Assembly: GCA_964036295.1 (NCBI GenBank)
Contig: OZ038471.1
Coordinates: forward strand, 15,345,184 to 15,409,183
Reading direction: 5' to 3'
Source: Plumapathes pennacea
Taxonomy: Eukaryota; Cnidaria; Anthozoa; Antipatharia; Myriopathidae
Length of the DNA: 64,000 nt
Below the pieces are notes generated by a model. It was not told the DNA's origin and ran no database searches. It worked only from the letters and a program-made list of their open reading frames with translations. Shown here piece by piece: positions 3,610-33,604 of this stretch (its first letter is position 1; each line of letters opens with the position of its first letter). The position numbers and the translations under genes were made by a program.

Positions 3610-6600
3610 ATGGCAGAAAAGCCTAGAGATTCTTCTGTAGCAGACAAGTCAAGACGTCCAGAAAGTAGATATGGTAGCGAGGAACCACAGCCGGTGCAAA
3701 GAGCACGGCTAGTCTCAGGACAAACGGAAGACGACCACACTTCAACCAGTTGCCTCGAAAGCGCTTTAAAAGAACATCAAAGTTTTACTTCCAGAGTTTC
3801 CGAACTGCATGGAAAGACTTCAACGTTGTTGAGCAAAATCCAAACAAGGTTGGGAATTGGCGATGATAAAGTAGAGATCTCGTTCCCGATAGCGGAGTTG
3901 AAGGAGGTAGAAAGCGCTTTGAAGAAGAATCCTGCCGTTATCTTCATTGGAAACCGCAACTGTGGGAAGAGCTCGCTACTAAACGAACTCCTTGGAGGAA
4001 CGTACCTTCCGGTGCACGAAAACCCGTGTACCTCGCGAATCGTGCGAATCAAGTATTCCGAGAAGAACGTCGCACGCGTTGTGAGTCCTGACGGTCGTGT
4101 TTTACAGACGAAAGGGGGTTTTAAGAAGGCAATCCCGAAAGATTTCGTCGTTTTAGCCGACAAGGAGAAAGATGACAAGGAGAAGCTTGAAACACTCGTG
4201 GAGGTTGGGTTGAACCATGAGCTGCTGAGAAGTGGAATCGAGCTGATTGACTGTCCTGGAAAGAATGAAACTCCCGCGTTAGACGGCGTTGTAGATGAAT
4301 TCTTGGAAAAAGGAACCGCGCCCCTTGTTGTTTACGTCATTGATGGAGATATGCATTTACGACAGACTGTAAGTTATTTTATTTATGTTGTTGGTTTACT
4401 ATTTTGTTTTGTTTTGTTTTAGTTTTTTTATTGTACTATTAGCTGCACTTAAGACTAACTCTTAGTATCGTCACCAATCATTGTCACTACTGAAACTAAA
4501 ATCACGCCTATCATCGCTGCAATCAACCACGGAAACACGCACAAACACGCACAAACACGGAAAACTATAAAAAGCCGTCCAGAGCCCTTGTTTGTTGTCC
4601 CAATTCGTATAATGTAACGATATCCGTCGACAGATCTCTTGTTGTTTTAAGTTTTAAATGTAAATGTTGAAGCCATTCATTGGGCTGTCTATGTTATTAC
4701 ACACTAATTCTTAGAATGCCAAATTAAAATCTCTCTTCTACAGTCAGTATCAGTTTTGTACATCTCCTTCTTGCCTCACCGTTTCCCCAAATCCAAGTCA
4801 GCGTCACCATCACCAACAATTTTATCACTATCAGCATGGTTTTTTATCAGCATCATCGTCATCAGTCCTACATAATATGCACAAACTTATTTAGCCATGA
4901 TTTTGTACTGATCACGGTTTTAGCCATTAAAAAGTTTCAGTTCTAGTCCTTCCCTGTTCAATTACAGGACCACGAGACGATCATTTTCCTTCAAGACAAA
5001 CTTCCTCACGTATCGTTCATCTATGTGTGCAACAAGATCGACACAACCGAGGAAGCGAAAGACTTTGATAACCAAGATTCTGATTCAGAGCACGACTTTG
5101 AAGATGCTGCTGCTGCACCTCACCAAGCGCCGGACAAGAAAGAGGCCGTGTTCACTCACCTACTAAGGCTCTATCTCCTTCCTGAAGATGCCGATATTGA
5201 TTCGTGCGAGGTCTTCCATGGTCTGTCGGCCCGAGACATCCGCTCTGCACGCCTTGATGAAAGAGAAGACGAAGCTACCAAGGGTTTCTCTAGATTTCGC
5301 GAGTGCTTCCTTGTGGTCCTTGCAGAAGGTATCAAGAGGCAGGTTAGGTTGGCCATTGACGGGATCGGCTCTGTGCTCGACCAATTCATTTTAGCGATCC
5401 GAAAGCCAATAGATGACTTACCAAAGGCCTTCGAAACGCTAAACAAAGTCATTGACGTCGCCAGGAAAACAGAGGAAAGCATTGCACATATCCTGAGGGA
5501 TCAAATCTCCGGAAACTTGGTCAACGAAGAAATGGTTGCTGCAACACTTTCCAAGGTAAAGCGGGAAACTGTGCAAGACGCAGAAACCTACCAGAAGGAG
5601 TTACACGTAGTTCCGATTGAACACGTGGAAGAGCTTATCGCAGGCCTGCCCATAGGCAAAATGAACCGAGCAGAGTTACAAGATAAGGTAGTTTTTATTT
5701 TTGATATAGCGACCGCTGTAGCTGGTAAGGTGGCTGCCATTTTGGGATTGGTGCTTGACAAAGCTCTAGAATCTGTAATCATCGCCTGCACGAATGATCT
5801 ACAGCAGGCCATAGAGAACATAGAAGCGCCCTTGGTGAAGAGAGCTCTGTGTCAGGCATATGGAATAGACTTGAGCAAAGCTAACGGTGAAGGCAGCGGT
5901 GCAGGAAAAATGGCCCGTAGGTGTCTCGTCGTACCTTCTGAAATGCTTCGATCAATTAATGGTGCTGTTTGCTCTGCTTTGAGCAAGGAAACTTTGACTG
6001 TTTCCATCAAGCAATTAGATGCTGAGTTGGTAGTCCCTTTGATCAGGATTGGAAGGAACGTCGTAGACAACAAATGGAAAGAAAAAGTGGTCCATTCAAT
6101 CATTTCAAGGTTCAAACCCAAAGAGATTGCTTTCCTCATCAATGAAACGTGTAAGGCAAAGGTTTCGACAATGCATAGCCGCTTCATCAGTTCCATAAAG
6201 TCAATCCTGGCACTTCACAAAGTTGTCGAATCGCTCGCAGCTGATCAGGGCATCTTAAACGATTTGCGCGTCCTCTATTTCCCTCAGCTGATGCAGCTTG
6301 CAGTCAAGGCCAGGTCCCTCAAGAACGAACTGGATCTCGGTGCAGTGCAGCTGGGAGAGCTGGTCGCCTCTGGAAAAACGACAAAGATTCATTCTTGTTC
6401 CTCCTCTGCCTGGCCTGAGAATGCTGTCGTTCGCGTTGTGGAGGAAACAGATGTCGGTGAAGAACTTTGGATTAGATTGACCCAAGATCTTTACTGGTCA
6501 AAGTAAGTTAATAAATTGGTTCTCAAAGACTTCCCATAATTCCTGTCGCTGAATAGTTTAGTATATGAAAACACGTAAGCGACTTTGTTCGTAGAATTCG

Positions 6601-8191
6601 GGGACCGACAAGATATCTGATATTCAGACTGTACGTATGTTGGTTCGTAATTAAACCATGTTGTATATTGTTTTGTTACTATATTCTTCTTACTTGCTCT
6701 TGTGTGTGTGTGCATTGTTCTCGTCAGGGAACTTTTGGAAAAGCAAGCCAGCCCTTCCCCATTCCTCCTGCGTTTGTATGGATGGCTAATGCCTGCTCCA
6801 GATATCCTGCACATTGTCGTGGAAACAGCTGGGACGGATTTGCTGTCTGCCCTTCAGCAAGGCATGACACTCAAGGAGCGTCTTAACATTGGTAGGGAAG
6901 TTGCTCTTGGATTAAAAACCATACATGACGGTGGTTACGTTTTCGGTGACCTCAAGCCTCGAAGCATATTGGTAAGATAAAATGCTAGTCTTAGTAAAAA
7001 CGAATTTTCGTGATTCAACATCTCAGTGAAACATAAGCCATGCTTGGCTTGACAATAGACCCATGCACGGATTTGAATGTATGAGTAATCAGGGCAAATG
7101 AACTGCTTATACATTCGTTTTTCTGATCGGTGGAACTTCGGAGCACTCTAAATTGGCCTTTGCAAGCTTTCAGTGATTCTAGATTGCGAGCGATTTCACT
7201 ATTAAACCGAGACTTCTCGCACGCGTCGCCGCCATGTTTCTTTGCTTTTGCCCTGACTACCCATCATGCATTCAAATCCGTGAAGGAGTCTATGGCATTC
7301 CAAGTTTGATGAATCCTCCCAAGGCTTTACGAAATGCATCATATACGACCCGTATCAGTCTTTTAAGGATACAGTTTTGTTGATAACACAATTTGCTTGG
7401 CCCGGCTGTTGGCCTACAGCTTGTTTTGTATTCATTTATGTATCGGTGTTCAAGTTGACAATTGAAAATGCTGAATTCATAGTGTGCAACTTGATTTATC
7501 CCCGTGTGTCAAACACCTAAACAGCCTGGAAATATTTTCAATGCTTTAGGATGTTTTAGAAGCTGATAGCTAGTCAGAGATTTTGTCATTGTTAAACCGT
7601 TGGACATGATACTTATATGCAAGGAACCCCTTCAATACTCAACGAAGAAATACCTTACCACCCTCGCAAAGGCTGCTGGGTTGTTTACGAGTTACCACAT
7701 GCTTCGCCTTATTACGTCTTTGTAAGTGTCTTCCGAGAAATCGATAGCTACAGGTCCACTATTCTGCTGAAATCACCTGTTAAAAATGATAAAAAAGATA
7801 AGAATTTTGTTTCCAGATTTCACGATTGGGAACCGCTAAGATCAATTTGGCCAAATGCACAAACCCCTTCCAGAAAACCAGACTCGGAATCCCATTTCAC
7901 CTGGCGCTAGATGTGTACAAACACGAAGACAACTTCTGCGCTTCAAATGACATCTACGCTTTTGGAATGCTTCTGTGGGTGTTGTGTGACGGAACCGGAA
8001 GTGCCCGACCTAAGGCCTATGAAGATTACGTGACAAAGTCGCAAATGTCGAAAGCAGTGCAAGATGGGATTATTCCTGAGCGTCCGAAAGAGAGCAGCGA
8101 TGCGTGCTGGGAGCTTATGAAGACCTGCTGGAAGAAGTGCAGTGAGATAAAGATGGATTTGGTCATTGAGCAGTTGACGGCTGGCCTGTGA
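3610..8191 (+). CDS. DSTYK-like dynamin-type GTPase fused to a degenerate kinase domain (paralogue 1)
   Basis: Four exons read from splice sites: 3610-4368, 4968-6502, 6728-6971, 7817-8191; the joined frame gives 970 residues. The N-terminal GTPase shows G1 GNRNCGKS (114-121), a G2 Thr in PCTSRIV (141), G3 DCPG (214-217), G4 NKID (275-278), an acidic insert, then G5-like LSAR (339-342). A helical middle follows. The C-terminal kinase fold is recognisable, with IYAFGMLLWVLCDG and the late helices, but it lacks the catalytic set. The VAIK lysine is Arg (about 742, AVVRVV), HRD is FGD (837-839), the metal-binding Asn is Ser, and DFG is missing (AKINLAKC). It should bind GTP and probably does not phosphorylate. 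It is the only plus-strand member and converges on its neighbour at 10.4-16.9 kb. An in-frame stop just upstream supports the ATG. The assignment rests on domain order and likeness to the intact copy at 26.9-33.6 kb. Confidence 0.88.
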
Positions 8192-10389: not shown

Positions 10390-13300
10390 CTATAAACAAG
10401 TATTTTCACCTGTTTCCGAGTCAGTTTGAGAATGCAACGCACTCAGGTGCTCTTGAAACAACCTCAGATCTGGTGTGTCCTTTTTCCAGGATTCCCAAGC
10501 GAGATCTAACAACCCTAACAGCTCAGCATTATGCTTCATACCCGCAAGAAAGGACGACTCCGGTTTCTTCCCGCTTGCAACTGCAGCATACACCACCTCA
10601 ACTTTAGACGTGTCAGCATACTTGGGCCTGCAGTACTCACCCTTCAGCAGCAGCCACAGAAGCACACCTAAGCCGTACAAGTCGTGACCTAAGTAAGACT
10701 CTTCTGTGGCATGGTCAGCGGGCTTTTCTTGTGGCACGTGAAATGGCGCTTTGTCGTCTGGGTAAGGCACGTGGTCATCACGTGTCTTGCACACGTTCAG
10801 TTTTACCACGTGACGCTCGTCCAACTACAGAAACAAACGGAACAAGTACAAAACAACATCACTGAATGTAAATACACATACGGCTGCTGTGATACAGCAC
10901 ATTTAGACAAACAATACATTACGTACCTAAATATGCATATGCTCACATCGTACGAGCATAAAAGCATGCGTGGAAACTACCATCTACTGTCTCATTACTT
11001 ATCAAAACTAAAAGTACACTATTAATAACAAAGCAAAATGTATGCCAAGACCATGCAAGATATACCATGTGACGTCAACAACAAATGTCACTATATAGTT
11101 GCCCGTACCGAATTTCAAAACCCGCCTGTAAAATATGGAGTCACACTCGTGTATTATATGAAAAATCAAGAGAGCATTTAGGAGATGGAATCTCGGGAGC
11201 ACGCGCAGGATATAAAAAAGTTTGTTAAAGAGACTGCAAAGTGTCCCTTACCAGAATGTTGGTGATCCTGGGGTCTACGTGATACAGACCACAATGGCGG
11301 GAAAAATCGCACGCGTCGGTCACCTGAAGAACAATAGCTAAGCGAGTACTCGGACCCATTTCCTTTACTCGGTCAGCAGCCAGAGCGTCGTACAGGTTCA
11401 TATCCATTTTAGGAAGGAGGACTGTGACGTAGTTCTGATAGTCAAGACGCAGTGAAAGCGGCTTTAAAATGCTCTCACGATCTTCGTTGGTTCTAAAAAA
11501 TAACAAGAACAATTAGACTACATAGTTGAGCCACAACTGTTAGTTCTAAAGATCTATCGGGTTAATAGTTTGTGGTATAAATCATTGTTTGTCTTCACTG
11601 CAAAGTTGCCCTCAGATTTCCATACGAAAGAAAGGAAGAAAGGACGAAAGGACGAAAGGAAGAAGGAAAATGAAAAAGATAAATTTGAAAAAAATAGGAA
11701 TAAGGAATAGAAAAAGAACAAAAGAAAGAGCAACGAAAACAAAATACCTGTAGAAAGAAAAAAGTAAAGAAAAGCAATAAAAGAACTGAAATAGTACAGA
11801 GGAGAAAACGAAAGCGAAAAAAAAAAAAAGAAAAAAAAAAGCAAGAAGTCGGCAAAACACAATATACGCACCTCTTCATGGCATACTGAACTGCCAAATA
11901 TTGAGATTTGGTCGTTCCTCCATTGACATACAGTTCCTTGGCAACAACTTCACCCATACCGTGAACAGTACAATTGTACACCAGTCCCCTGTGACCTCTT
12001 CCAACCTCGGTTCCAAGCTGCACCCTAGACGAGGAGAGGATCTCGAGAAGAGCTTCTGTCTTGCACATCTGCTCTGCAAATGATGGCGATTTGGAGACGA
12101 CAACTTTACGCTGGTCAGCGGTCTGCTTTCTCACTTCATCACACATGGCCTGGATGAGTTGCACATTGACCAAAAAATTTTCGTGGGCTGCATCAAGGTC
12201 CGAACGAAGACTCTGCAATATTCTTTTAGCGACTTCTCTGTAGTCGATGTTGTTGATCACATCTTTGGCAATCTTCCTCTTCCACTCTTTATTGATTGTA
12301 GTTCCTGTTACTATGGAAGTCAAGTCTTTAATCACGTTATAAGCCTGCTCAACGTATTTGTATCCGGAGGTCATCATTGAGTAGTCAAACTGCAAGAGAT
12401 GATCACTTGATGTGCTATAGTTTAGCAGGATACATTTCATTAGCTGTTTCTTCACAATCTCGCCGACCCGCCTATCTCTCTCTTTGGACACTTCAGCAAA
12501 ACTCTTCTCTAAAGACGTTTTCGCTTTAGACATGATGGTCATGATGGTGCCTTTTCCTTTTCTCTGAGCAATGTTTATCACTTGCATCAGCACAAGTGTC
12601 TGGATCTGGGTTCGACATTGACGAACGACTTCATTTCTTCCGATGACGTCACCAATTTTGATCGGTGAGAATTCCATCAATTCCGCAGCCATCAGGATTC
12701 TTTCTGTCGCATTATTTACCTCTGACGATACTATGTTGGCGATTTTGGTCTCATAGTCACGAATGTAGTTCCTTATTTTGCTATTGTAATCCCATTCCTT
12801 GGATTTCAACTCGCCAAGAATCGTCTCGACACTTCTTGGATCATTTTGTTTCAAACCACGTGACAATGCGAAGTGAAACACTCGCTGCTGTACTTGACAC
12901 AACTGCTCGGCTGCAGAGCGCAGGTGGGACTTAATGCTTGACGCAACGAATTTGAGAAGCTTGCTCTTCATTTTCTCAAATCCCTCCGTGTACTGATTCG
13001 TCACGCCTTCCCGTCGAGCTTTGCGTACCTCTTTAGACGAGACCCCGTGGTACACGTCACAATCTTCGGGTTTCGCATCGTCATTGAGGAGACCATTATT
13101 CACCAGGCTTGTGTAGGAGAGTTGTGTCTTCTCTTGAATTGTTCTTCTCACTGCTTCTTCTAATTCTTCTTCTTCATCATCAGAATCTCTATCAAAGTCT
13201 TCCGCTTCTTGATTTCTATCGACTTTGTTGCACACAAAGAAAATCGGCAAATGACCCATCTTTTTTTTCAACTCGTACAGAAACTCTCGCTCCTGCGGGA

Positions 13301-16300
13301 TGGGAAAAAAGAGTTTTGACAACATGTATTACGTGTTTATATTTGGCATGTATCATGATGGACTTGCTAGACTTTCAGAGCCGATCAATGCGAAAGTTAA
13401 CACCCCTCCACACCTCGGGCATACCCCGGGCATTTGACCCTCTCCCTTGCCCGGGGAGGCGGGAATTTGATTCTAAATCCCGACCATGGGTGAGGAATTT
13501 GAACCGTTGCCTGAGAGGGGCGGGGAATTTGAACCTTAAGTATTTACTTTTTCTGGTTTCGCAAAATACCCACATGGTTTTCCTGTGTGGAGACGGCTTA
13601 TAATGAACAACAAGCGATTTCATTTTTATAGCTCAACAGCGCTGCGAAATTTCATCTCAACGGCGTTTGAAAGAGAGTCCCGTACTGTACGCATCGATTC
13701 GAAAACATTTGTCCTTGGAAGGGGGGGGGGGGGGGGGGGGGGGAGGGGGTCATTTGACTGCAAAATTTGACACTGGGGTAGGGCATTTAAACACCTTTTT
13801 AGCCCAGGGGGGGGGGGGGGGGGCATTTGACCAAGCCAATCTTCAAAAGTTCAAATGCCCGGGGGTGGGGGGGATGTTGAACTTTCGCATTGATCGGCGC
13901 ATAATACGGACAAAAGAAAGCAGTGCCAATTATACTACCCTAGAATTCCCCTAAGCCTCCCACCAAAGGAACAACAACAACAGTACAAAACAACAAAACA
14001 AAAACAGATTAGCCCCCCACTAAAACAACAAAACATTTAACAAAAAAGGCCCCCCACCAAAAACAACAACAAAAACAAAACAAAAAAAGCCCCTCACCAT
14101 AAACAACCACACAAAAACAAAACAAAAATATGCCCTCATAATCGTAAACACAAAAAATTCCTCCAACACTTCAGGCCCTTCACTGTAACAAATATAAGCA
14201 TGTTTACCTGCGTACGCAATGAAGAGTTACCATCAATCACATAAATGAAAACTTGAAGCACTCCATCCAAACATTCCTCCACAATTTTGTCCAGAGCCTC
14301 GTTTTCACTCATGCCTGGGGCATCTACAAACTCCAAGTGACCATGTTGAAGGAGAGAATTCTTGATACCAACTTCCACTACCCGGTTCACCCATTCTTCA
14401 CTGGATCTCTCTGTGTCTCCGAGAGCGATTTCGGTCTTTGGAATGCTCTTCTTTGTGAATGTTGTGGCCTCACCAATTTTTTGTCCATCCTTGTCCAACA
14501 ACTAGAAAAAACAAAAACAAAAGCAAAATAAGAAAAAACAAAAACAAAAGACAAAAGCAAAAACAAAGTTGTTGACACAAACAAATAAAAAGCAAAATGC
14601 CTGTGGTGTAACTGAATGGGTTCACGAGTGCAATAGAATTCCAAAGTGTGGTGTCAAAATTTTACAAACTTTTCCATTCAAGCTGCTGCAAGAATGTGTG
14701 CAAAATTTCAGATCGCTTGCCCTACTGATAGCAAAGACACAGAACTTTAAAGTTCCAGATAACTCCATACTAAACTCTCCTATTTAGTGTCATGTAGTTC
14801 TAAATCAAAGGAATCATCACCTAATCATGAGAGGGTTTAGTATTGAAGCAATTTGAACTTCAAAAGCCTATATCTCAGCTGTCAATGCCTAAAAGGGCAA
14901 AATTTTTAAGACAGGCCTTAAATTTCCAAAGATTTGGACAGAAAAACTATCTTTGTGATGCCATCACTTTGGCGCTTTATAGGGGCCAAAGTAGCCTTCT
15001 CATAGCCATTTTTGTGGTCACAAGGTGTTGTGATCACAAAATTGGCTGCGAGGAGACAGGGCCCAAGTGAAAATTTATTTTTACCTGCACATAGTTGTTC
15101 TCGCTATACTTCAGACGCACAATCCGTGAGGTACAAGGAACTTCTGCTGTTGGCAAGTAACTCCCCCCAAGAAGCTCATTCAAGAATGAACTCTTTCCGC
15201 TGTTGGTTTGACCCACCACAAGGACAGTGGACTTCTTCTCTAAATTGGCGTCAAGTTGTTGTTCTTCTTTTTCTGTCATAAAGACACTGCTGCCTTCTTT
15301 CTTGCCAGCATCTTCACATTTAAAAGCTTCTTTCAGTGTTTTCAGGAGTGCTTTGGACTCTTTCAGACAGCCCTCAAAGTGTGTAATGTAAGAAGTGAAT
15401 TCTTGAAACTGAACCTCAAATGAGCTGGTAGCTTTGCTCCCTTTAAAAAAGAAGTAAAACAGTGTAAATGCTATGTTTATAATGTTGTAACACTCTTGGC
15501 TATAACAGCTAGTTTACAGGTACAAGTATACCACAGACAGAAAATAAGCAGTCACTTTGGTGCTGGTGAAAACCAGTGACCTGCCGACTGCACCACAAGG
15601 ACATTACCGACAGAACAGGATCTCCTTGGTAAAGCCAATGATCCTCACTAGCACATAAGCATAAGCACAAGCATAAGCATAAGAATAAGAGAGCGACAGT
15701 GGTGACATACTGCAAGCATACGGATCAAACACATCTGTTCCTTAATGCTTTATGCTTATGTCGCCACTGTCACTCTCTTATCCTCACACTTATACTTGTG
15801 CTTATGCTTATGCGCTAGTGAGCACCAGGCTTAAGTGACTGCAAATATTAGCTCATACCTCCCTATAGAGGGTTTTTGCACTGATGTGGCCATGTTGGAT
15901 GGCAGATGGCAGAAACAATAGAATTTAATTCCTCTGGGAAAGAAATGCTATTGTTATGGAAACATATTTAATTGTTCCTGCCATCCAACATGGCTGCCTT
16001 GCAAACCCTCTATTGGAAAGATTCTTGCAATAATCATTATAATATTTGTTAAGCATTCAACCTTACAGGTGATCTGTCAGTAAAGTTCTATCAACCAAAT
16101 GTTTTAATATGTAAAGTACACCCAGTGTTAATGGCTGCATTGAACATGAGAGTGCTTCTAGGATGACTGTTGAAAACCAAAACCAAAGCAATCACAGAGC
16201 CAATCAATGAGATGAGCAAAAACACTGCCAACTCAGAACGACATCAGCAAGCTGGGTCGAGACAGGCAGTGTGTTCAAGGAGACTTAAATTATATGAAGA

Positions 16301-16869: not shown

Positions 16870-17757
16870 TTCCTTAGTTGAGGACGTTCACAATTTAAGG
16901 GTTTGTCAGAGCCATCTTTTTCTCTCTCTCTACCTCAGTTCCGAGAATCCGTGCGTCACGGTTTAATGATTTCCAGGTAAAACGATGCCAGGTGACGTCA
17001 TTCTTGCAAGGTCTGATACGTGGAATGGGAAAACTGGCATGTTGGAGCAGGGACTCTCTTTAGTGGGATCCGTACGTGAACTGTTGGAAAGGGAAAAAGC
17101 CCTCTTTCACACTTTCTAGACTTCGAAAACAAACGGAATTTTGCTTCGCCGAAAAATCACTACACTTCACATCAGCCGCATCTTTTATTTCAGCTGATTT
17201 CGTTTCTCACTCGTGAGATATCAAGATGAGCACTCGAAGATAAATTTCATATCACCAAGCGTCCATGTACTATTCTGTTTACTTCATAAACTCCGGTGTG
17301 ATACAGGGATTTCCGCCACAAAGAACTGCGAAAACATGCAAAATCATTGCTTGGCTGATATCACTCCAAGTAAAAATATCGTATTTTTACGTGTGTTCAA
17401 ATACGACATTTCTAAGTGGCCGAAATTTCTGTATCACACACAGTTTTTGCAATAAACTTCTCTATTTACTGCAACTTCACTGTGCAGCTACTTTTCTGGG
17501 AGATATCCTTTTACTTGGTTACAATAGTGTATTAAAATATTACGATATCTTTTGTATTCTACAACGGGTTGCAAAAATAGTTAAGACTTAAGTTTTTTTA
17601 CGTCCTTTTATTCGATTTTGGACTTGTTTCTTTCTCTTCTTCCCCCCCCCCCCCCCCCCCCCCCTTCTATTGCAATGTTGTTTAAGCCCCCAAATCTGTC
17701 GCAAAGTATTACAGGTACAACAATGACTGAAAATGATCAGATTGAGCGCACACTTAC

Positions 17758-18710: not shown

Positions 18711-19260
18711 TGAAACCGCAAGGTGTGATTATTCAAATGATGGCTTTCAACGAGTTCACTCTAACATACAGCGGTACTCACTTTCCAACTCTTGAACTGT
18801 CAATTGAAACCTAAAGGTGTGACCACTCAAATAAAAGTTCTCAATGATTACATTCTAATAGCAGTGTTCACTTCCAACTCCTGAACTGGAAAATGAAACC
18901 TAAATGTGTAACCACTCAAATGAAAGCTCTCAATGAGTACATTCTAATAGCAGTGTTGACTTCCAACTCCTGAACTGGAAAATGAAACCTAAAGGTGTGA
19001 CCACTCAAATAAAAGTTCTCAATGATTACATTCTAATAGCAGTGTTCACTTCCAACTCCTGAACTGGAAAATGAAACCTAAAGGTGTGACCACTCAAATG
19101 AAAGTTCTCAATGAGTACATTCTAATAGCAGTGTTCACTTCCAACTCCTGAACTGGAAAATGAAACCTAAAGGTGTGACCACTCAAATAAAAGTTCTCAA
19201 TGATTACATTCTAATAGCAGTGTTCCTCTCCAACTCTTGAACTGTCAAATGCGAGGCACA
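18711..19260. repeat. 89-bp tandem satellite, about six units
   Basis: The motif 'tgaaacc' followed by 'gtgtgaccactcaaat' recurs at 18805, 18894, 18983, 19072 and 19161, exactly 89 bp apart. A more diverged first unit begins at 18711. Units differ by a few substitutions (aatgattac or aatgagtac; ataaaag or atgaaag), with the variants partly alternating, which hints at a higher-order dimer. Confidence 0.9.
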
Positions 19261-19626: not shown

Positions 19627-20100
19627 CGGGTATATTTAGCATTTTAATTAATTATTTAGACTAGGTTAGTATAGCATAGTGTCCCAAATTTAATGGTTTG
19701 TCAAGCTAAATAATTGAAACATTTAAAGGCAATATTGTTATTATTTTAGTTTTTTTGCCCCGGGGGTGGGGCATTTGACCACTAAATTCAGCCTTAAACC
19801 GGGGCATTTGAACAGTCATTTTGGCCCCAGGGTGGGGAATTTGACCATCGGAAAATCGAAAAGTTCAAATGCCCGGGGGGTTGCCCGGGGGGTTGCCCGG
19901 GGGGGGGGGGGGGGGATGTGCGAGTTTCGAATTGATCGGTACATTATATCATAGATTTTCAGTACATTATATTCGGGTATATTTAGCATTTTAGTTAATT
20001 ATTTAGACTAGGTTAGTATAGTATAGTATAGTGCCCCCAATTTAATGGTTTGTCAAGCTAAATAATTGAAACATTTAAAGGCAATATTGTTATTATTTTA
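19627..20100. repeat. Direct duplication, 19627-19748 and 19974-20100
   Basis: About 122 bp beginning 'cgggtatatttagcatttta' is repeated with few differences after 347 bp. The G-rich element lies between the two copies. The 5' flank 'tcatagattttcagta' is also duplicated (19297 and 19949), but in the left copy the flank and the rest are split by the foldback insertion. Confidence 0.8.
19749..19945. mobile_element. G-rich element, second copy
   Basis: Shares 'ggggcatttgacc', 'aagttcaaatgcccggggg' and the right end 'gagtttcgaattgatcggt' with the element at 13380-13898. The left terminal repeat is not obvious, so it may be 5'-truncated. It ends in a run of about 16 G. Confidence 0.6.
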
Positions 20101-20224
20101 ACGGTGTTTAGTAATTCATACGTCAACCTTTTGTTTCTTTACACTTTATACGTTTTATCTCCATGCCGACAAAGTCTAAATTTAGTCCTGGTATAACTCC
20201 ATTGTATGCCTGAAGCGTTTCCAT

Positions 20225-23200: not shown

Positions 23201-25104
23201 AGGGATACGATCCAAGCACTGCTTCGGAAGGAATTATTTTGGCAGCTTTGAGTTTGTGAAAAACTGATAATTCCTTAGCGTCGACTTGGTCTTTATCTTC
23301 GTCGCCGGAGTCACGGTCGTAGTCACTTGCCCCAGAGGTGGTATCCACTTTATTGCAGACAAACATGAATGAAACTTGCGGGAATTTTTCCTGGAGTAAA
23401 TTAATTGTGTTAAGATCCTGAAAAGCAAGCGAAACGCTTTAATTAACATCGAGCTGCCTTTAGAGGAGAGCGAAGAGCTTTTACAACTCCTCCCAGTCTA
23501 AACCGGTATGACCTATTTTTACCCGGTTTACGCGGGACAACTTTTTTTCGGAAATAAAACGATTGGTAAAAGTGGCTCAGGGAGAGATGACTCGGTTATC
23601 CCCGTGCGGTAAATCGATAAAACCGATAATCGCTAACAATCGATACCAATTAATCGGTTGATATTGGAAATTGATGGCGGAGTTTCTTGTGATATATGAT
23701 CGCTTGGTTATTGATAGTTTTAAATCTCAATCGATTAATTATATGACCTTGCGGACAAAGGATTCTTTTTACATCACAATTTTTTATTAGAGGAACTTTT
23801 TGTGTTATTATTGATTGGTCATCGATTGGCTCCTTCCTATCGATATCAATCGATTAACTGTGATCAATTGGATTTGCGATGATCGACAAACACTGATCTA
23901 CCAAACCGGGTACGGTCAACTCTCCTAAGGTGGACACCCTCGGGAGTAAATTTAGTGTCCGCCTTGGAAAGGTGTCTGCCTTAGAGAGTTTAGTTACAGA
24001 GAAACAAGTGAAAATCGGCGAGGACCAAACTCTGCATGCTGTTCGCCTTAGAGAGGTGTCCACTTTAGAGAGGTGTCCACTTTAGAGGTGTCCACTTTAG
24101 AGAGGTGTCCGCTTATAGAGAGTTGACTGTACATAGAAGCGGGACAGTCATTTTCATAGTCAAAAATGGCGTGACAAATGTATGTGGTGGAATTTCTAAA
24201 AGACCTATTGACCTTCGAGTGCCATTAGCAAAAGCTATGTTGAAAATTATGGCCGAATATTTCTCAAGTTATAAGTAAGTAGAAAAAGAAAACATGACCG
24301 CGTAAAATGCGGCTGAGAAGAAAATATCGATCCGAAGCGAAAAAGATTGTGTGATTTCGATCTCTTGATACAGTATTGCTTTAAATTCGAATTAACTTAA
24401 TTAACAGAGAAAGCGGGTCTCGAACATATGGATCGAAATAAGTTGAGTGAATATGTATCTTGGATTTCATTGGTCCTTACCGTTTTTCGTAGTCCCGTTC
24501 CCCCGTCGATGATGTAGACAATCAGGGGAACAGTCCCATCGCCCAAGAACTTGTCCAACACACTATCAAGCTCGTCATTCTCATTCCTGCCCGGTGAATC
24601 AATAAGTTCGATTCCGCTTCTCAACAGCTCGTGGTTAAGGCCAACCTTGACAGTGCACTGAAGCTTTTCACCTTCCTTGTCTGCATCTGACATAACCGCG
24701 AATTCTCTCGGAATCTTCTTCTTGAAACCAGATTTGGTTTCAATCACTCTCCCTTCTCTGGTAATCAATTGAGCGTACGTCTCCTCCGCGAAGACAATTC
24801 GGACTATTCGCGAAGTGCATGGGTTCTCATGGACTGGAACATAAGAACCGCCCAACACCTCATTTAGCAGAGAGCTCTTGCCACAGTTCCTGTCTCCAAT
24901 GAAAATGACCGATGGATTCTTTCTCAAAGCTCTCTGGACTTCGCTCAACGCTGCTGTTGATAGCACATCTTTCTCGCCTTCAGACTCGTTGAGTGGAAGC
25001 GTTTGCTTGATTTCCTGAAAACAGGTGACAGTTTCGTCATAGATGGACTTTACACGGCTTGAAAATCGTTCAAATTCATGGACGGCTTTCTGCAATGTTC
25101 CCAT
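20225..25104 (-). CDS. DSTYK-like dynamin-type GTPase fused to a degenerate kinase domain (paralogue 3)
   Basis: Four minus-strand exons: 24481-25104, 21892-23417, 21121-21364, 20225-20611; 926 residues in one frame. The first ATG in frame (MGTLQKAV) is used; upstream codons are open but carry no ATG. GTPase motifs: G1 GDRNCGKS (70-77), G2 in PCTSRIV, G3 DSPG (169-172), G4 NKVD (230-233), acidic insert DRDSGDEDKD, G5-like VSAK. The kinase fold keeps a lysine in SVVKVV but has no glycine-rich loop. HRD is YQD (789-791), the following DLKP is kept, Asn is Thr (ETVL), and DFG is missing (AKINMAIP). The SPEMY and DIYAFGMLLWVLCEG segments show the C-lobe is otherwise normal. Closest in sequence and intron layout to paralogue 1, sharing the GYV(F/Y)xDLKP catalytic-loop style. 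Role unknown; probably a GTPase with a pseudokinase module. Confidence 0.88.
23910..24132. mobile_element. MITE with 15-bp inverted ends (gtac...gtac)
   Basis: The left end gtacggtcaactctc (23910-23924) pairs with gagagttgactgtac (24118-24132), one mismatch. The interior has repeated 'ttagagaggtgtccac' units near the right end. Intron 1 of paralogue 3. No coding capacity. Confidence 0.7.
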
Positions 25105-26874
25105 TGTGAGCCACAGCTTTGTAAATATGCTGACCCACAGGGCGGAAGTAAAATAACGCACGAGAGACTGGAATCTAGAATATAAAAATTGAAGTGTGAG
25201 GGAGGGGATCCTGCAGGAACATTGAGTTGAGTTTAGTTCAGAATATTTAACTTCAATTTTCTCCTAATATTATCTGATAGCATTTATAGCATACGGTAAA
25301 GAGAATTTGGCAATTCATTACCTGTTTCTGGCTGGCTTGGGTTAAAAGTAGCGCGCTCGACAAGTAGTCCGAGGTCCAGTTCCAAATTTTAATTCCTGTT
25401 AATTTTTCGTTTTTTTTTTGTGTAATTCGGTACTCCTGTCATTAATGCTGAAGCCATCAAAAGCACCCAGTTTCATTGGCTTCCAATCGTTGTCTCTGAG
25501 ATTCTCGGAACCGACACAATTACCGTGAAAGCTTGAAGAAGACTCCTCAAATACGCAGAAATGTTGATCAAAAATGGAGATGACCACACAAAATATTATT
25601 GGTGAACCCGCTGTGTATAAATGCAACTCGACATAATTCTCTATAAAGCCTTGCCGTCACTTGGGCATAAGCATAAGCACAAACATAAAAAAGCGACAAG
25701 AACGGACGTGTTTAATCCTTATGCTTATGTCGCCAATGTCGCTGTCTTATTCTTATGCTTATGCCCTAGTGGACAAGGTTTAAAACTGAGTCTAAAAGCT
25801 TGGGCCATACTTAGCTGCGAACGCTATGTTGTCAAAACGTCTGTATAAATGCTTCATGGGACTGATGCCAAATGTCAGGTCCGTAGCATCAAGTAGGCTA
25901 TTTCCGATGTCTTGGGTCCCTGTTTCAAACCTACGCCTGGTGCGAAACATTTCTTATGAAAATGAATTGGATCTGCACAAAAATGAATTAATATTAGCAC
26001 TTGGCCTCGTCTAAAAACAGAGGCAACAGGTATCTCGGAAATTGTTTATCTGGCAGCCTTTTAACGTTCAGAATTATTCAGTTATTATATTATTAAGAAT
26101 TATTAATTAACAAGTTTTGTTTAAGCAAATTTACTGGATAGCTTGACCTTGAATGTTTAGATTGTTTGGTCCGTTTGTCTCATCCCAATTACTTATATGA
26201 TCTGTTATTAGTACAGGAACATTAAAAAATAAAAATAAAATAATAATTATAATAATTAAACTTGTACTCATACAAACTACTGAAAAAATGCCTGATTGCA
26301 GCCTTTTGTGAGATTAAATGAGCTGTATAAAACTCTAACTACGTTAAAAGTATTCAAGGCCCCGTTCACATTAAAGCAAACATTTCCAAATCCAAGACTA
26401 CTTTTTCCAGAGTCTTTTAGACGTTTACACACACTTGATAGTTATATTTAAGTAACTATTTTTAACTAAAATGTTTCCTTGTCTGTGGAAATCAAGTATA
26501 TGGGAAAAGTGTTTCGATTCTAAATGTTTTTTTTTTCAGAGGTACGAAAAATGTTGATAAGTTCAGCAATGTTAACAACAAAACAAAACAAACAAAAACA
26601 AAAACGAAAACAAATACTAAGAGATACCTTATGCCCTATGTCTTTTCCTGTTCCAACACACAGATTGATGATCACTACTTATGTCAAATTCTGTTGACAT
26701 AATAACCAGCCACAATTATATTTCTAGTTGGAGGTTTTCCTGAGTCCCTATTTAAGATTAATACATGTATTGTAATCAAACTACAATAAACTATCCGATT
26801 CTATAGTTACATAATAATATCAATTAATATCTAAGTTCACCACGGAGACCGTGTGTCTAGTCACATTACGACAG
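25105..26874. other. Spacer between paralogue 3 and DSTYK
   Basis: Holds the promoter side of paralogue 3 and the 3'UTR of the DSTYK-type gene. AT-rich, with one foldback repeat (25658-25772) and A-rich stretches near 26220 and 26575-26615. No gene seen. Confidence 0.6.
25658..25772. mobile_element. Foldback repeat with 'cataagcataag' arms, copy 2
   Basis: The left arm 'cacttgggcataagcataag' pairs with 'cttatgcttatgccctagtg' on the right; 'gcgaca' and 'tgtcgc' pair inside. Same family as 15645-15831. Confidence 0.7.
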
Positions 26875-29800
26875 TTACAAGATATCGGGGTCTTCCAGAA
26901 TCCTCTTCAAATCTTCAACCACGACATCAAAACTTGGTCTGTCTTCGGGTTCAAAGCTCCAACATTTCTCCATAAGGTTCCAGCAATTTTCCGGGAATTC
27001 CTCCAGCCGTTCAGGGGTCTTGTTCTCGAAGGCATTTAGGTAGAGCATTACTAAGGGATTGCAGTGCTTGTGGATGTTTTGTGGCTGGTTTCCTTTGCCT
27101 TCACACACGCGCCACAGCAGTACACCAAAGGCGTACACGTCAACGGTCTTGTCGTACTTGCGCGCGATCATCTCAGGCGCCATGTTCAGCGGTGTTCCCA
27201 CGAGAGAACCAGTCACCAGACCCTCTGGTTTGCAAAGGCCCATGTCAGTCAGCTTGGCGTGATTGTTTTCGTCAATCTGAAAGATATTACATAATTCGTC
27301 TGCAGTTGTTTATTGCAAATAAGCACCACTATCTCGTGCAGATATGATAAAAAACAAATAAACAATACTAGCTTTCTTTACAGGGCGGATTCTGGACAAT
27401 AATTTTTCTACCAAAACAATTACTTTCGACCAACCAGAAGCGAACATAAATTGTGAGGCAGCGGTACTGCCACTTGCTTGCTTACGTGAGAAAACCATAC
27501 TCGGGTTTATTGTTTGTTTCTGGTAATATCAAAGAATGCTGCAAAAAGCGTTTTGATTGGCCAAGAATGTTGCTAAACTTGCTAGGACCAATCGGAAAGC
27601 GTAGAAAACGCAGCAATCACACGATTATATTCGACAGCCTGTTAACGATGTCTCAGGCTTAGATCAAACGACGTACTTTAGACGAGACGAACTAAATTGA
27701 GCGAATTAAGTTCATGATAAGATCGACGTTTGACTCAATTAAGTTCGACTGATTGTATTTGGATCGACCAGGACGTTCTTTCCGTCTGTTGCAGACGGTA
27801 AGAACGTCCGAAGATCGTCTCGGGGTCAAACGTCGATCTTTTCATGAGTCGAACTAAATGCAAACTCCCACTGACCCAAAAAATTGATTCTTGTATTCTG
27901 AATTTGTTTCGAGGGAATTAAGTTCGACGATTAAGTTCGACGTTTGACCCAGTAGTCGAACTTAATTAATTTCGGTGGACCCGAAGTGTAATTTAGTTCG
28001 TCTCGTCTGAAGTACGTCGTTTGACCTGGGCCTCAGTTAGAACGTTGAGGAGGGAAATAAAACTTTTATAGGTGTCCAAACGGCGAGATTTTACTGAGTA
28101 ATGAACATATTACAAGCAAAACCCGCATACCAGAACGTTTTGTGTCTTGACATCACGATGAATCATGCCTTGCTTGTGAACATACTGCAAAGCTTCAGCC
28201 ACCTTGTTGGAAAAAATGAAATAACAATGTCAGACAATAACGCGAACAGTCATTTACTGTAATGTCTATGATCCGCACACTTTAAAATCGAATCCACATT
28301 GTCGATTCTTAAAAAACTTCTCTGCAAGCCGGTTAATCCTTTCCCTCCTAAGAGTGATCAAGTTCAATTTTCTCTTTTCAGTCTCTCATCAGAGATATAT
28401 CATACAGTACGGAGAACTTGGATTTTGGTAACTTCCTCAAATAAAAGCTTATAAATTTCTTATCTCATGGCTGGGAGAAATTGTATTCCAAACTTGGCCT
28501 GGAAGGAAAAGGGTTAATAGGCAGGTGGAGCGACAATGATCCTGACACAGCTAATTACAGCAAACTCGGAAACGTTCACCCTGTAAGTGTATCCCAATAA
28601 CTTGCTCAAATAAAAGCTGATTGATATATCAATTCTCACTTCACCACTCATACAACTTCTTATTTCATGGTTGGGAGAATTTGTATTTTGAGCTTGGGAG
28701 TAAAATGGTTAATAAGCAGGTCAGTGGAGCGACAATGATCCTGTTACAGCTCGTTATAGTAATACAGAAAACGTTCACCCTCTATCCCAACAACATACCT
28801 CAAGAGCAATGTTTAGCCGCGTTCGGAGAGATGGAAGTGTTGGTAAAGCCTCGTATAGGTCACACTTCATTCGCTCTAACACCAGGGAAACACGATATCC
28901 CAGGCTGCTTGAGCCCGCAATGCTGGTGCACAACAGCGGCAAAATGTTTTTGTGGTTCAGTGCCCTGCGAGAAATGGATATTAGTGGCCCTTGGACTTTC
29001 AGGATTTTTAGAATGTTGAAATATAAGTTTTTACCACAACACACTAGTTTCTCGTTCTCTGATTGGTCGATTTACCGTGGTAAATAAGAGTCCAGACAAT
29101 GATGCTGACGCCAGCATGTCACGTTTTGCAGCGAAATACAACAAGTTTCCTGTATATTTCTAAATGTTGTGGTAAAAAACAAATTTCCAATGGTTTGCCG
29201 TGGTGTGGACTCTTATCTACCACGATTTACGTCATCACATGGTCAAAATTAGTTGCGGACTCACTCGGCGAAGCGCCTCGAGAGTCCACAACATTTTGAC
29301 CATGTGATGACGTAAATCGTGGTAAATAAGAGTCCACACCACGGCAAACCAGTGGAAATTTATTAAGTAGTCCTTTCGGTTTAGATTTTGGCGGGAAAAA
29401 TTAGACTTGTCACTTCATTCCCGTGAGTCATAAAAACACGTGTCACGTGGTATTACCAGTATTCAGTTGGTCATTTCCGAGCCGGTCTGCTGACCCTGTT
29501 TTAAAGCGAGGGGGCTTGGTGCAAAACATTTCTTGACATACAATCAGTGACCGAAGTCTTGGGACACTCGCACAGTTTCAGTAAATTCTCTACTGTTTAA
29601 GTTGAAAGACAACCCCCCTCCTCCCGTTCAATGTTGAAGTGGCCTAAACTTGTTTTTCCCAACACACGCAACATTGTACAAAGGGAAGGGGGGGGGGTGG
29701 GGTGGGGGGGGGGGGGGTTTCGCGCCTTTCAGTACGCTTAGTCAATGACTTGTGTCTGAAAACCTTCAATTTTTAAAAGTGTTCCAAGAACTTTTGTCAT

Positions 29801-32800
29801 TGATTATAGCTATACTGTACACATCATCAATCTTTTAAATGTAAGTACTGTATGTATGCATACAAATGTTCATGGACCTTTGCAAGACGTTTTCATAGTA
29901 AAATGTCAGGTTCGCGTGAGTCTAGGAACCTTCACTATACCTGGTGTTGTGTAGCTCGAGTGTCAGGTCCTTCAACTGGTCATCACTGGCTATGGGTACT
30001 TCTTTCACGACGCATGGCTTGCCTGAGGGAGATCGGATGTTTTCGCACGCATACACTTTGCCTTGGGCTCCACCTCCAATCTGATCCCCACACTTAGGAA
30101 CTCCGAACCTCATATTATCCAACACACTGTAAGTCAGCATCTCTAGCATGGCGACATCTGGGGCCAGAGCTTGAATTCTCTTCCGCTGTTCATCCTTCAT
30201 GGTCTCGCCCCGCTCACACAACATAATGATTTTTTCGACTTCTGCTGCAAACCTATCGTGACAGTCATCGAAATGTTCCTGCAGTTTCTCGATGAGATCC
30301 GTGGTCACCTTATCAGCTTTAATGGCCTGCAGCTGTCGCTTTGCAACATCTTCCTTCCACTTGGGGTCCCCCACAAAAAACTTGCCCGATAAGGCCTCTT
30401 TCAATCCCTTCCAGCCTTGCTTGATCAAGCCTTTCCAAATATCGACAAAGGCCTGGCCAAATGCTCGAAGATATCCACTCTTTGTAGCTGGCGTCTCCAA
30501 CTGCACTTCGTAGAATGTGACCAGGCTTTGTGCCAGCGCATGCGCAGCAGTGGAGGAGTTATCGTCATCTCTTGTTTCTTTCTCCAGATTTCTCACTTGC
30601 TCTTCCAGCTTTTTGGCAAACTCATCTTTTGAGGTGAACATCTGTTGCAATTTCACAGATATTTCAGCCTGTAGCTTGTTCATGACCGTGTGTCGAACCT
30701 GGTCCACGCACGCGTCTCTGGCAGCCGTGCTCTTCACGAATCCATCGGCAGTGAGATCTCTGATTTCTGCTGTGTCATATTCAAGTTCCCCAGCTGCCTT
30801 CAGGATTCCTTCTTCGGCTCCTTTGATTGTTTCCTCAATTACTTCCTTGATATCCTCATGTTTGGCCTTCAAGTCGCTCTTGATGGCTTCGTGCACTATT
30901 TCCTCCTCTCTTTTGGCGGTTTGCAGCATTTCCATGGTCGCCTTGTTTTCTGACTGAAGAGCATTTGCTTTCTGGATGAAGAACTCGAGGCACCTGGAAA
31001 GGACAGTGATAAGCAAGGACGCCACTCTGTCGATGTTTGCTCGGAGACTGGCTTTGTAAAAGCGTTGGAGGCATTCCTTAAAGTGCTCGAAGTCCCTGGT
31101 GTATTCATCGGGATTATTCTTTGCCTGGTTTATCTTCCAGGCCGACAGGCCATGCAACCGCTCTTTGATCTCTGCGTCTTCCTCAGGAAGGTAGCCAAGC
31201 TTCACCAACTTCTCCATAACTCGGCGTTTTTTACTCTCTTGTACTCGCTCTACTTCTGTTTCGTTTTCTTCTTCTTCATCATCCGAGGAGAGACGCTCTT
31301 CTGGGTCAATCTTACTGACAACATAGAAGATATCCAGCTGTTTCTCCTGCTTCGTAATGTCGGTCAAAGCTGTACGATCCTGAAATGTTTAGAAGAGATT
31401 TAGCTCAGATCTCCAAACCATTCTGGACTGTAGAAAACACAAACGTTTGGTACGAAGGTGTTTCTGCTGCCGCATATCGGTTTTGTAAAGAACCTTGTAA
31501 CAGAGTCAATCACAAGGGTCATCAATGGTTGCTAGGAAACTATTGTTTCTCCAACGTAGCTGATTGGCCAAGAGAAAATAGGCTTTTACTCGTATTGGTC
31601 AAAAATTGCACTGAAGCAATGAAACGTTTGCGTATAGAATAGAGTTTAAGATTGTTTTCCGCATCCCGCAAACCTTAAAGCTCAAAGCGCAAGAAGTCAC
31701 ACGTCATGTCTGGCGTATTTCTGTTATGTTTTTAACACCAAGAAGCATTCCTTAGGTAAGTCAAATACTGCAGAAATAAGCTCCTGTTATCTCGGAATTT
31801 GCTACCTTTAGCAAACTGGAATAAGTTAGATCATGTGACTTTTTGCGGTTTGCGAGCTGCAGTATACGGCAATCTCAACCCTTTCACTCCCAAGCTCAAA
31901 ATGCAGATTCTCATAACCTTCTAAGAAGAAAATATATCAGTGATGTAGTGAGAATTGAAAATTTGAACAGCTTTCATCATAGCAAGGTATGAAAAGCCTG
32001 ATTCTCCTTACTCTATGATGTATTTTTGGTGAGAAACTGAGGGAGAAAATTGGAACTGATCACTTTTGGGAGTGAAAGAGTTAAACAGTCTATTGAGAGT
32101 GTCAGTACACCGGCTATTGTTCCCGAAAATCAATGTAAAATAGCTCATCTGGAACATTTAAAATTGGGATATATTTTGTGACTTTTGTGAAGAATAGATC
32201 ATTCACGACCAACAGATAAAATAGAAAAAAAGACTGAAGAGAAAAGCCCGAACAAACGAACGCAACTTCTTGGCACAACATCGCCTAACATTCAGTGTGT
32301 ACTTTATGCTTCATCCGACGGTGAGAACAGCAATTGATGTGTCGTCAATTGACACCACACTTGGATCATTTGGAAAGTCGCCCGTTTGTATTTTTGCAAC
32401 GAAACATGATTGTCAGAGTCACTCAGGGTTTTTAGTTAACTTTAGCCTCCGTTTGCTTTTGCCTTTGCCTTTTTTGTGTCCAGCCATCTAGTCAGAATTT
32501 TTTGCTGTGAATCACTCAAGCAAGTGAAATATTCAATTACCAAAATTTTCTCTGCTAACAGCGCTTTGGTAGAGGTTCCGACGGTGAATAGTTTGAACTT
32601 TTTGAACATGTATATGTTGGTGAGAGAATTACATCTAAAAGCTGTTTTAATATGCTCAGTAAAAAACAATCCTGACATTTGAAAACTGAACTAAAACATG
32701 CAGGGTCAGACTAAGGTCAATTTCGCAGTCTTTGATTTTTGACGGTTTTACAACTAAAACCAGCCAATTTCGACCAACATTCTCAAGTTCTTAAAAAAAT

Positions 32801-33604
32801 ATTACTCAAATATGACATATAATATGTATATGACGGCTGTTAATAGAATTGTGCACAGAAACACTTACAACGTACCTGAGAAGTAAAAAGGTTATGCCCG
32901 TCCACGACGTAGATAATAACAGGAAGAACGTTTTCCAGTTGTTTATTCACGAGGTTGTCCAGCACTTGGTTTTCATTTTTGCCTGGGGAATCAATGATAT
33001 CAACTCCAGCCTTCAGGAAGTCGTTGTTCAACCCGACCACCAGACTCGCACCAGCCTTGTTTGGGTCTTCTCTGTCGCTTTTTGAAAGCTCGATCATGCT
33101 CCGTGGAATTTTTGATTTCCCCGTCAGCTTACTCTCTTCGAGTATAGTGCCATTTCCCGCTTGAAGCTTCACGTAAGACTCCTCTGAGTACGTCACACGT
33201 ACGATTCGTGCAGTACACGGTCGATCTGATGTTGGAAGTGCCTTGGTTCCCAAGAGTTCATTAATAATAGAGCTCTTGCCACAGTTGGTTTGACCGATCA
33301 CTATGAGCGCTGGTTCTTGAGAAAACAGGCGTTCCACTTCGTCCTTTTCAGCCTTAGAATAAAGCACATCGGATAAATCGAGGCCTAGCTGCACGTCTTC
33401 AACGCTAAGAGCGACATCTTCGCCGCTTGGTGAAGTTGGGGGACTGTGAGTCACGGTTTCAAGTTCCGTTCGTAGTGCAGCGTCTCTTGGAGTCGTTAAT
33501 CCACCGAGAATGTTTTCAAAACACTCGACGGTGCCTTCATGAATGCGTTGTAGAGATGCTTTTCCCTCCTTGAACTCTTCAAAAGCTTCCTGAAGAGCCG
33601 ACAT
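26875..33604 (-). CDS. DSTYK: Dual serine/threonine and tyrosine protein kinase (DSTYK orthologue)
   Basis: Five minus-strand exons: 32876-33604, 29941-31379, 28799-28964, 28131-28202, 26875-27276; 935 residues, close to the 929 of human DSTYK. The N-terminal GTPase has G1 GQTNCGKS (104-111), PCTARIV, and G3 DSPG (205-208). The G4 position reads SKID (265-268) instead of NKID. An acidic SSDDEEEENE insert and a helical middle follow. The kinase is complete: GGGAQG loop (678-683), VAIK-type lysine in CVVKEV (702), HRDVKTQN (793-800), DMG (813-815), APE (835-837). A kinase of this kind autophosphorylates and, in vertebrates, is linked to FGF/ERK signalling and cell death; that role is transferred by family. 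It has an extra intron before VAEALQY that its paralogues lack. The introns carry several MITEs. Assignment is strong from the C-lobe sequence (LVGTPLNMAPEM, DVYAFGVLLW) and length. Confidence 0.92.
27656..28034. mobile_element. MITE with about 40-bp terminal inverted repeats
   Basis: The left end runs 'atcaaacgacgtactt' then 'agacgagacgaactaaatt'. The right end runs 'aatttagttcgtctcgtct' then 'aagtacgtcgtttgac', its reverse complement. Internal palindromes include 'gttcgacgtttgaccc'-type blocks and 'ccgtctgttgcagacgg'. About 380 bp in the DSTYK intron between 28131 and 27276. Related 'gttcgacgtttgacccgg' sequence near 47590 suggests a dispersed family. Confidence 0.8.
28334..28517. repeat. 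Copy of the 'ccctttcactccc' dispersed repeat
   Basis: Begins 'taatcctttccctcctaag', ends 'aggaaaagggttaat', with the family blocks between. DSTYK intron 3. A half copy follows at 28603-28712. Confidence 0.7.
28603..28712. repeat. Half copy of the 'ccctttcactccc' dispersed repeat
   Basis: Carries 'aaaagctgattgatatatc', 'aattctcacttcaccactc', 'gggagaatttgtattttgag' and a terminal 'gggagtaaaatggttaat'. Same intron as the preceding copy. Confidence 0.7.
29182..29360. mobile_element. Near-perfect hairpin, 68-bp arms
   Basis: 29182-29249 and 29293-29360 are reverse complements apart from a few bases, around a 43-bp loop that is itself partly palindromic ('cggactc' and 'gagagtcc'). DSTYK intron 2. 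Fragments of the same sequence ('ggtaaataagagtcca') lie at about 29070-29100, so the element may extend left. Foldback MITE. Confidence 0.8.
29686..29719. repeat. Poly-G tract
   Basis: Thirty-odd bases almost all G, in DSTYK intron 2. Prone to length error in assembly. Confidence 0.8.
31877..32086. repeat. Fuller copy of the 'ccctttcactccc' dispersed repeat
   Basis: Bounded by 'caaccctttcactccca' and 'tgggagtgaaagagttaa', which are inverted repeats. In opposite internal orientation to most other copies. DSTYK intron 1. About 210 bp; the terminal inverted repeats argue for a MITE rather than a SINE. Confidence 0.75.

Follow-up and report, generated by a model that had tools for sequence, protein, structure and literature searches.

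A multi-copy DSTYK-like family in Plumapathes pennacea couples a dynamin-type GTPase, closest to BDLP and mitofusins, to kinase folds that are in part predicted to be inactive

DSTYK, also named SgK496 and, in part of the literature, RIPK5, has been tied to spastic paraplegia, urinary-tract anomalies, zebrafish scoliosis and STING signalling. BDLP and mitofusins/FZO1 tether or fuse membranes, LRRK2-type Roc-COR kinases hold a GTPase and a kinase in one chain, LRRK2 using a Roc domain, and the GBP, IRG and Mx proteins of the dynamin superfamily are large GTPases that assemble, that often occur in clusters and that, to our knowledge, are never fused to a kinase fold. Passages of the DSTYK literature treat the protein as a kinase and name no GTPase domain; the word GTPase does not occur in PMC11933320 and occurs once in PMC6981171, in the title of a reference. 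Among open-licence literature we found no paper tying DSTYK to a GTPase domain (the idea may still have been published), none on DSTYK with Nematostella and, for DSTYK with coral, only human phosphoproteomics, judged by title. Here we analyze a window of 64,000 nucleotides from the antipatharian Plumapathes pennacea (C10:15345184-15409183, in an assembly of 290 Mb and 24 contigs), in which each of four genes, A to D, combines a GTPase of the dynamin family with a helical middle and a C-terminal kinase fold. We consider it probable, if by no means certain, that they belong to a multi-copy DSTYK-related family whose proteins join a BDLP/mitofusin-type GTPase and the middle to the kinase fold, the N-terminal half acting on membranes and the kinase fold providing the output.

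The four genes were modelled from six-frame translation and inspection of splice sites, and all have open frames with GT-AG introns throughout; the start codon of A lies at 3610 and that of D at 33604, and the 5' end of B is provisional, as its start exon was not found and the frame enters from an intron. In a Pfam scan Dynamin_N (best match 1.3e-23), Pkinase and PK_Tyr_Ser-Thr each matched all four proteins, and the shared layout is far beyond chance, bearing out a sequence-only reading of this DNA that had described four such fused genes in 30 kb. That reading also kept GTPase and kinase in one gene, and this holds at the DNA level: in every case a single open exon of 1.4-1.5 kb starts just before the G4 motif, spans the helical middle and ends in the glycine-loop/lysine region of the kinase N-lobe, so that a split into two genes would have to cut through an open exon. 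A-D have three intron positions in common: one separates G3 from G4, one lies inside the N-lobe and one directly follows the catalytic loop.

Individual exons of D, C and B served as queries against the genome (14 regions were fetched, and the counts are lower bounds), and paralog proteins were assembled from tblastn pieces, with approximate exon edges outside the window. The family comprises at least 13 copies with both halves, in three branches (A-, B- and D-type), together with two GTPase-only copies and one fragment (Table 1). The clustered expansion previously proposed is evident, and a fifth copy, D2, extends the cluster beyond the left edge of the window. Near two A-type GTPase exons that lack a kinase half lie two short second exons, both stopping at the same residue (DG[VI]KR); these loci look like GTPase-only genes, as if a kinase-less A-type form had been fixed and then duplicated. 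No later exons were found within 9 kb of the D-type fragment on contig C2. A weak match to exon 1 of D (47 amino acids (aa), E 5.5e-4) at G000:C5:4524951-4525088 is possibly a further relative. A hunt for prokaryotic or viral relatives by strict seed patterns, which distant ones could escape, returned 47 pattern matches in viral contigs and 67 in genome contigs, with 0 relatives in either set.

A dynamin-type G domain with motifs G1-G4 is present in A-D. All four keep G1 (GxxxxGKSS), G3 (DxPG) and the switch threonine (PCT[SA]R); for G4, D has SKID where the other three have NKxD. G1 is intact in 13 of the 13 fused copies of the genome. When a profile of GTPase and middle was compared with solved structures, BDLP came first (3e-16), with mitofusin-1 at 3e-11 and FZO1 at 9e-10, and BDLP/mitofusin structures took ranks 1-9 of the 33 solved sequences matched at E 0.01, ahead of Era/Der-type GTPases. 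BDLP was also the top solved match of the N-terminal half of D alone (1e-10), and the match to BDLP starts at the N-terminal helix and continues through the G domain. These comparisons point to the BDLP/mitofusin branch of the dynamin superfamily as the closest for the GTPase half. Residues 494-512 of A, within its exon 4968-6502, are strongly hydrophobic (Kyte-Doolittle mean of 2.12 over 19 residues) and possibly form a membrane-inserting tip; C has a hydrophobic stretch at 523-541 (mean of 1.65), B and D have no comparable one on this scale, and except for the stretch in A no clear transmembrane segment was seen in A-D.

The kinase half, on the other hand, has kept its catalytic motifs in one branch only. 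D retains the glycine loop, the lysine, HRDVKTQN, DMG and APE, and among the window genes it alone (1/4) has competent VAIK, HRD and DLG/DFG motifs. A, B and C keep the catalytic-loop aspartate and lack exactly the three DFG residues, their gap falling on DFG in an alignment to BRAF, EGFR and JAK1 taken from solved structures; in addition, A has arginine in place of the VAIK lysine, and the glycine loop is lost in A and C. The same division extends over the genome, where DFG is deleted in all nine A/B-type copies and present in all four D-type copies, and six of six B-type copies share both this deletion and an HVDPRITN[IV]L loop. The three pseudokinase copies announced by the earlier reading are, accordingly, found in the window as A, B and C. 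With catalytic residues lost but fold and selection retained, A- and B-type copies would be pseudokinases, and we predict them to be inactive.

Selection was assessed through ratios of nonsynonymous to synonymous substitution rates (dN/dS), obtained as simple Nei-Gojobori counts, using for the B-type five copies in 10 pairs (B4 was left out because of a deletion). Over these pairs the kinase gave dN/dS values of 0.21-0.41 (C-lobe) and 0.25-0.48 (N-lobe), and the GTPase values of 0.12-0.27. For A against the A-type copy F, values of 0.20-0.33 were obtained for the kinase and a value of 0.19 for the GTPase. The middle was looser in both cases (0.18-0.57 over B-type pairs, 0.34-0.39 for A-F). The comparison of A with C is at or near saturation and serves qualitatively only, the proportion of nonsynonymous differences lying well below that of synonymous ones at both ends. 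The kinase folds of the A- and B-types are under purifying selection. Branch lengths on a fixed five-sequence tree (5-95% range of 60 bootstraps in brackets) gave kinase/GTPase ratios of 0.34 (0.23-0.59) for human DSTYK and 1.27 (0.85-1.98) for D, against 4.35 (3.17-6.34) for B, 3.09 (1.63-5.32) for the A-C stem and 2.65 (1.43-5.23) for terminal A, and the ratio of B exceeded the human one in 60 of the 60 bootstraps. Whether DFG was lost once or separately in the A- and B-types is a point on which the data pull in opposite directions: the kinase tree places B outside with a support of 74, whereas the identity of the three-residue deletion favours a single, shared loss. Five-sequence kinase-only and GTPase-only trees did not settle the place of B either, with ultrafast bootstrap (UFBoot) values of 47-55.

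The search with D, C and B also found K1, on contig C1, which matches our presumed sequence of human DSTYK (hereafter human DSTYK) at 59%, 76% and 69% in the last three matched segments, at 41-47% in the earlier middle and at 30% at the N-terminus. It has GQTCYAKV at the P-loop and CSPS in place of DxPG, the G4-bearing exon was not found, and no Pfam family matches its GTPase region up to E 1; human DSTYK likewise gives kinase families and weak matches in Pfam, with no GTPase family and no Dynamin_N. Both proteins keep the kinase motifs and have lost the P-loop and DxPG. In trees built with UFBoot and FastTree, the full-length one comprising 14 sequences (B4 left out), K1 and human DSTYK group at 100 UFBoot, and the four D-type copies (D, D2, D3, D4) make up a separate clade, also at 100, which joins K1 and human at 99; K1 alone groups with human DSTYK, A-D do not, and the DSTYK-like family is separated from BRAF, EGFR and JAK1 at 99. 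Contrary to the suggestion that one copy in the window looks orthologous, the DSTYK ortholog found in this genome is K1 and the window holds none, D being a paralog. The broader relatedness to DSTYK that had been claimed is borne out by BLASTP alignments over the full length, in which D matches human DSTYK at 28% over 903 aa (E 3e-102) and A, B and C at 21-23% (E 3e-37 or better), and a profile of A-D matches the N-terminal region of human DSTYK separately, at 47.6 bits. The match of the B kinase is weak (39 bits), and the placement of B rests on its other domains. Judged by full-length homology and by a kinase fold nearer to that of DSTYK than to other kinases, A-D are members of a broad DSTYK family made up of DSTYK and DSTYK-like proteins. 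Relative to A-C, D has an additional intron between its kinase exons; its loss in A-C was set aside, since this position is also bridged by tblastn blocks of K1 and D4, a gain in D/D2/D3 seems more likely, and the intron was not used as evidence for a clade of A and B.

A further feature of the family is the mosaic relationship of D and D2, which mark either end of the cluster and are oppositely oriented. Synonymous divergence (dS) between them is 0.13-0.17 in the GTPase and kinase exons, 0.45-0.51 in the first part of exon 2, and 2.28 and 1.46 in middle segments 2 and 3, and four-fold sites agree at 187 of 206 positions at the ends versus 18 of 39 in middle segments 2-3 (Fisher p 1.4e-9). The same contrast is weaker for D-D3 (p 0.003) and is found neither in D-D4 (p 0.51) nor in B-B5 (p 0.89). 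DNA similarity of D and D2 extends 4-75 bases past exon edges, with the exception of one 72% block reaching about 240 bases into intron 1 and of three intron blocks of 52-82 bases. This mosaic fits gene conversion, the simplest reading being that short conversion tracts homogenized the ends while the middle diverged, and it makes D/D2 a candidate case of conversion renewing both enzyme ends of a gene around a diverging middle. A and C also contrast in this respect (22% in the middle versus 63% and 41-50% at the ends), but recent gene conversion is ruled out as the cause, because their synonymous sites are at or near saturation throughout.

The mechanism that we infer from these data takes in GTPase activity, kinase activity or its absence, the membrane site, oligomerization and the regulation of partners. 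Upon GTP binding, the N-terminal half would self-assemble on membranes, most likely endolysosomal ones, and the assembled halves would tether or cluster them. The kinase fold would then act as output module, able to phosphorylate in D-type copies and, in A- and B-type copies, catalytically dead and yet selected, docking or allosterically regulating partners, perhaps the D-type kinase itself. DSTYK would have undergone the converse loss, its GTPase decaying to a pseudo-GTPase while the kinase remained. The family as a whole presents three states: GTPase and kinase both kept (D-type), GTPase kept and kinase lost (A- and B-type), and GTPase lost and kinase kept (K1 and human DSTYK); the kinase/GTPase branch-length ratios agree with this division. 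The poorly understood N-terminal part of DSTYK thus seems to be the remnant of a membrane GTPase. We lean slightly towards a two-enzyme ancestor of DSTYK, consisting of a BDLP/mitofusin-type GTPase and a kinase, whose descendants lost opposite halves while the D-type kept both; the vertebrate role in lysosome fusion would then have been inherited from the decayed dynamin half of DSTYK rather than from its kinase. In the passages available from PMC6981171, DSTYK is located on late endosomes/lysosomes and its overexpression leads to their fusion and enlargement, which the BDLP/mitofusin affinity of the GTPase fits; in those from PMC11933320, loss of kinase activity prevents DSTYK neither from reaching LAMP1 compartments nor from binding STING. 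The coral family supplies a missing intermediate, in the form of DSTYK relatives with a readable membrane-fusion-type GTPase as their front half, and a natural series of independent losses of the GTPase and of the kinase, and it makes action of the DSTYK N-terminus on lysosomal membranes without the kinase directly testable.

Several observations weigh against this interpretation. Beyond the G domain, the match to BDLP is confined to the N-terminal helices and the first part of the middle, in which it soon ends. The kinase/GTPase ratio of terminal branch C is just 1.46 (0.91-2.17). Some copies are imperfect: D2 is without the switch threonine, D3 is damaged by one stop and lacks the APE segment, and B4 misses about 245 aa of the middle and has a poor G3 (DTPS instead of DxPG). 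The human DSTYK sequence used throughout, with a length of 929, is presumed by us to be correct. The positions published for K681 and D777 (PMC11933320) and for Leu91 (PMC8490499), as they appear in passages of these papers, do agree with it. Finally, passages of PMC11933320 report that kinase-dead DSTYK does not restore STING signalling, and the DSTYK kinase therefore matters.

Other explanations have to be weighed against the same evidence. That D could be the DSTYK ortholog, with A-C a tandem expansion beside it, is suggested by the D kinase, far closer to human DSTYK (222 bits) than to the best solved kinase (95 bits), and by a five-sequence tree that, without the rest of the genome, joins D and human at 99 UFBoot; we regard this as extremely improbable, because K1, which matches human at 59-76% over its last three segments, groups with it at 100 and the D-type forms a separate clade. 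Hardly more credible is the notion that A- and B-type copies are decaying duplicates on their way to becoming pseudogenes. Their kinases have indeed lost catalytic motifs, and relatives such as D3, B4 and the C2 fragment are broken, but A, B and C maintain open frames of more than 900 codons, all B-type copies carry the same deletion and loop, and the dN/dS of 0.20-0.48 in the pseudokinase lobes of the ten B-type pairs and of A-F, all pairs with usable sites, indicates that these are not decaying copies.

Two further proposals concern function. The genes might form a cell-autonomous defence system like GBP/IRG/Mx, in which the middle would be a sensor, the GTPase would assemble on pathogen or vacuole membranes and the kinase fold would signal. 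Clustering, conversion at the D/D2 ends and a middle that in A-C is far more diverged than the ends make such a use plausible, and the many copies in two clusters, the GTPase-only forms and the support that vertebrate DSTYK lends to STING signalling and to resistance against a DNA virus, according to the abstract of PMC11933320, are in line with it. No segment with a finite value has dN/dS >1, however, and there is therefore no evidence for positive selection; moreover, GBP, IRG and Mx are absent from the 33 solved sequences matched at E 0.01. Defence is compatible with the membrane-acting GTPase-kinase that we favour, and we hold it as a tentative possibility. It is unlikely, in our view, that the proteins are soluble GTP-switch scaffolds whose GTPase gates the kinase fold in cis with membranes uninvolved: the linkage of GTPase and kinase through a helical middle in one chain and the scarcity of transmembrane segments, the stretch in A aside, would agree with such a switch, but the closest solved relatives are membrane-tethering dynamins, and vertebrate DSTYK is reported on late endosomes/lysosomes (passages of PMC6981171).

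The remaining features of the window lie between, within or beside the four genes. A tandem repeat with an 89-bp unit (5.3 copies, 93% matches) occupies 18778-19251, between B and C, and an intron of D contains at 29178-29364 an inverted repeat (arms of 72 nt, 96% complementary, spacing of 43 nt) that looks like a small transposable element. Beside the cluster lies a single-exon gene for a rhodopsin-type G-protein-coupled receptor (36892-37905, + strand; 7tm_1, 7.7e-46). It is followed on the - strand, at about 44300-61142, by exons that begin with a signal-peptide-like sequence and code in a row for EGF, fibronectin III, Ig, MAM, Ig and TLDc domains. Together they may make up a single protein, secreted or in the membrane, whose extracellular TLDc would be unusual; an ATGT microsatellite of 29 copies (48590-48705) lies within an open frame holding an Ig domain.

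Table 1. Coordinates of the DSTYK-like genes and related features. Plain positions refer to the window; those with a contig refer to the assembly.
Feature	Position	Strand	Description
Gene A (A-type)	3610-8191	+	exons 3610-4368, 4968-6502, 6728-6971, 7817-8191; 970 aa; GTPase motifs intact, predicted pseudokinase
Gene B (B-type)	10390-15441	-	exons 15085-15441, 14208-14501, 11872-13292, 11252-11492, 10390-10824; 915 aa without start exon; GTPase motifs intact, predicted pseudokinase
Gene C (A-type)	20225-25104	-	exons 24481-25104, 21892-23417, 21121-21364, 20225-20611; 926 aa; GTPase motifs intact, predicted pseudokinase
Gene D (D-type)	26875-33604	-	exons 32876-33604, 29941-31379, 28799-28964, 28131-28202, 26875-27276; 935 aa; GTPase motifs (G4 = SKID) and kinase motifs present
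Fusion exon, A	4968-6502	+	
Fusion exon, B	11872-13292	-	
Fusion exon, C	21892-23417	-	
Fusion exon, D	29941-31379	-	exon 2
D 5' end, putatively homogenized with D2	32836-33597	-	exon 1 and 40 bases of intron, 91.5% identical
D 3' end, putatively homogenized with D2	26863-27288	-	exon 5 and 12 bases each side, 93.9% identical
D2 (D-type)	G000:C10:15338700-15343726		
D3 (D-type)	C10:12.19 Mb		
D4 (D-type)	C7:2.23 Mb		
F (A-type)	C10:12.15 Mb		
B2, B3, B4, B5 (B-type)	C10:12.21-12.28 Mb		
One more B-type copy	C7, 2.22 Mb		
Two A-type GTPase exons without kinase half	C10:12.166 and 12.169 Mb (the two as L029:5601-9065 (-) and L028:6794-7165 (-))		exon pairing of second gene uncertain
D-type first-exon fragment	G000:C2:28527988-28528970 (L027)		two pieces, one TGA
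K1	C1:40663140-40672890		DSTYK ortholog

Among the systems described so far, GBP, IRG and Mx resemble the coral proteins as large assembling GTPases of the dynamin superfamily that are often clustered, and differ in being absent from the solved matches to the A-D profile. LRRK2-type kinases share the presence of GTPase and kinase in one chain; the GTPase of A-D, however, is Dynamin_N, with Roc matching just weakly (5e-4) in one of the four window proteins and no LRR or COR families reported for A-D in the Pfam scan. BDLP (2j68) and mitofusins/FZO1 are the best solved relatives and align with A-D over the N-terminal helices and the G domain, but A-D carry in addition a C-terminal kinase fold and show, except for the stretch in A, no clear paddle or transmembrane anchor. 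The likeness to DSTYK spans the full length of A-D, and K1 appears to share the N-lobe intron position and the one that follows the catalytic loop. As opposed to K1 and human DSTYK, nonetheless, these copies keep the GTPase motifs, the A- and B-types have lost the DFG that DSTYK keeps, and the family is multi-copy and clustered.

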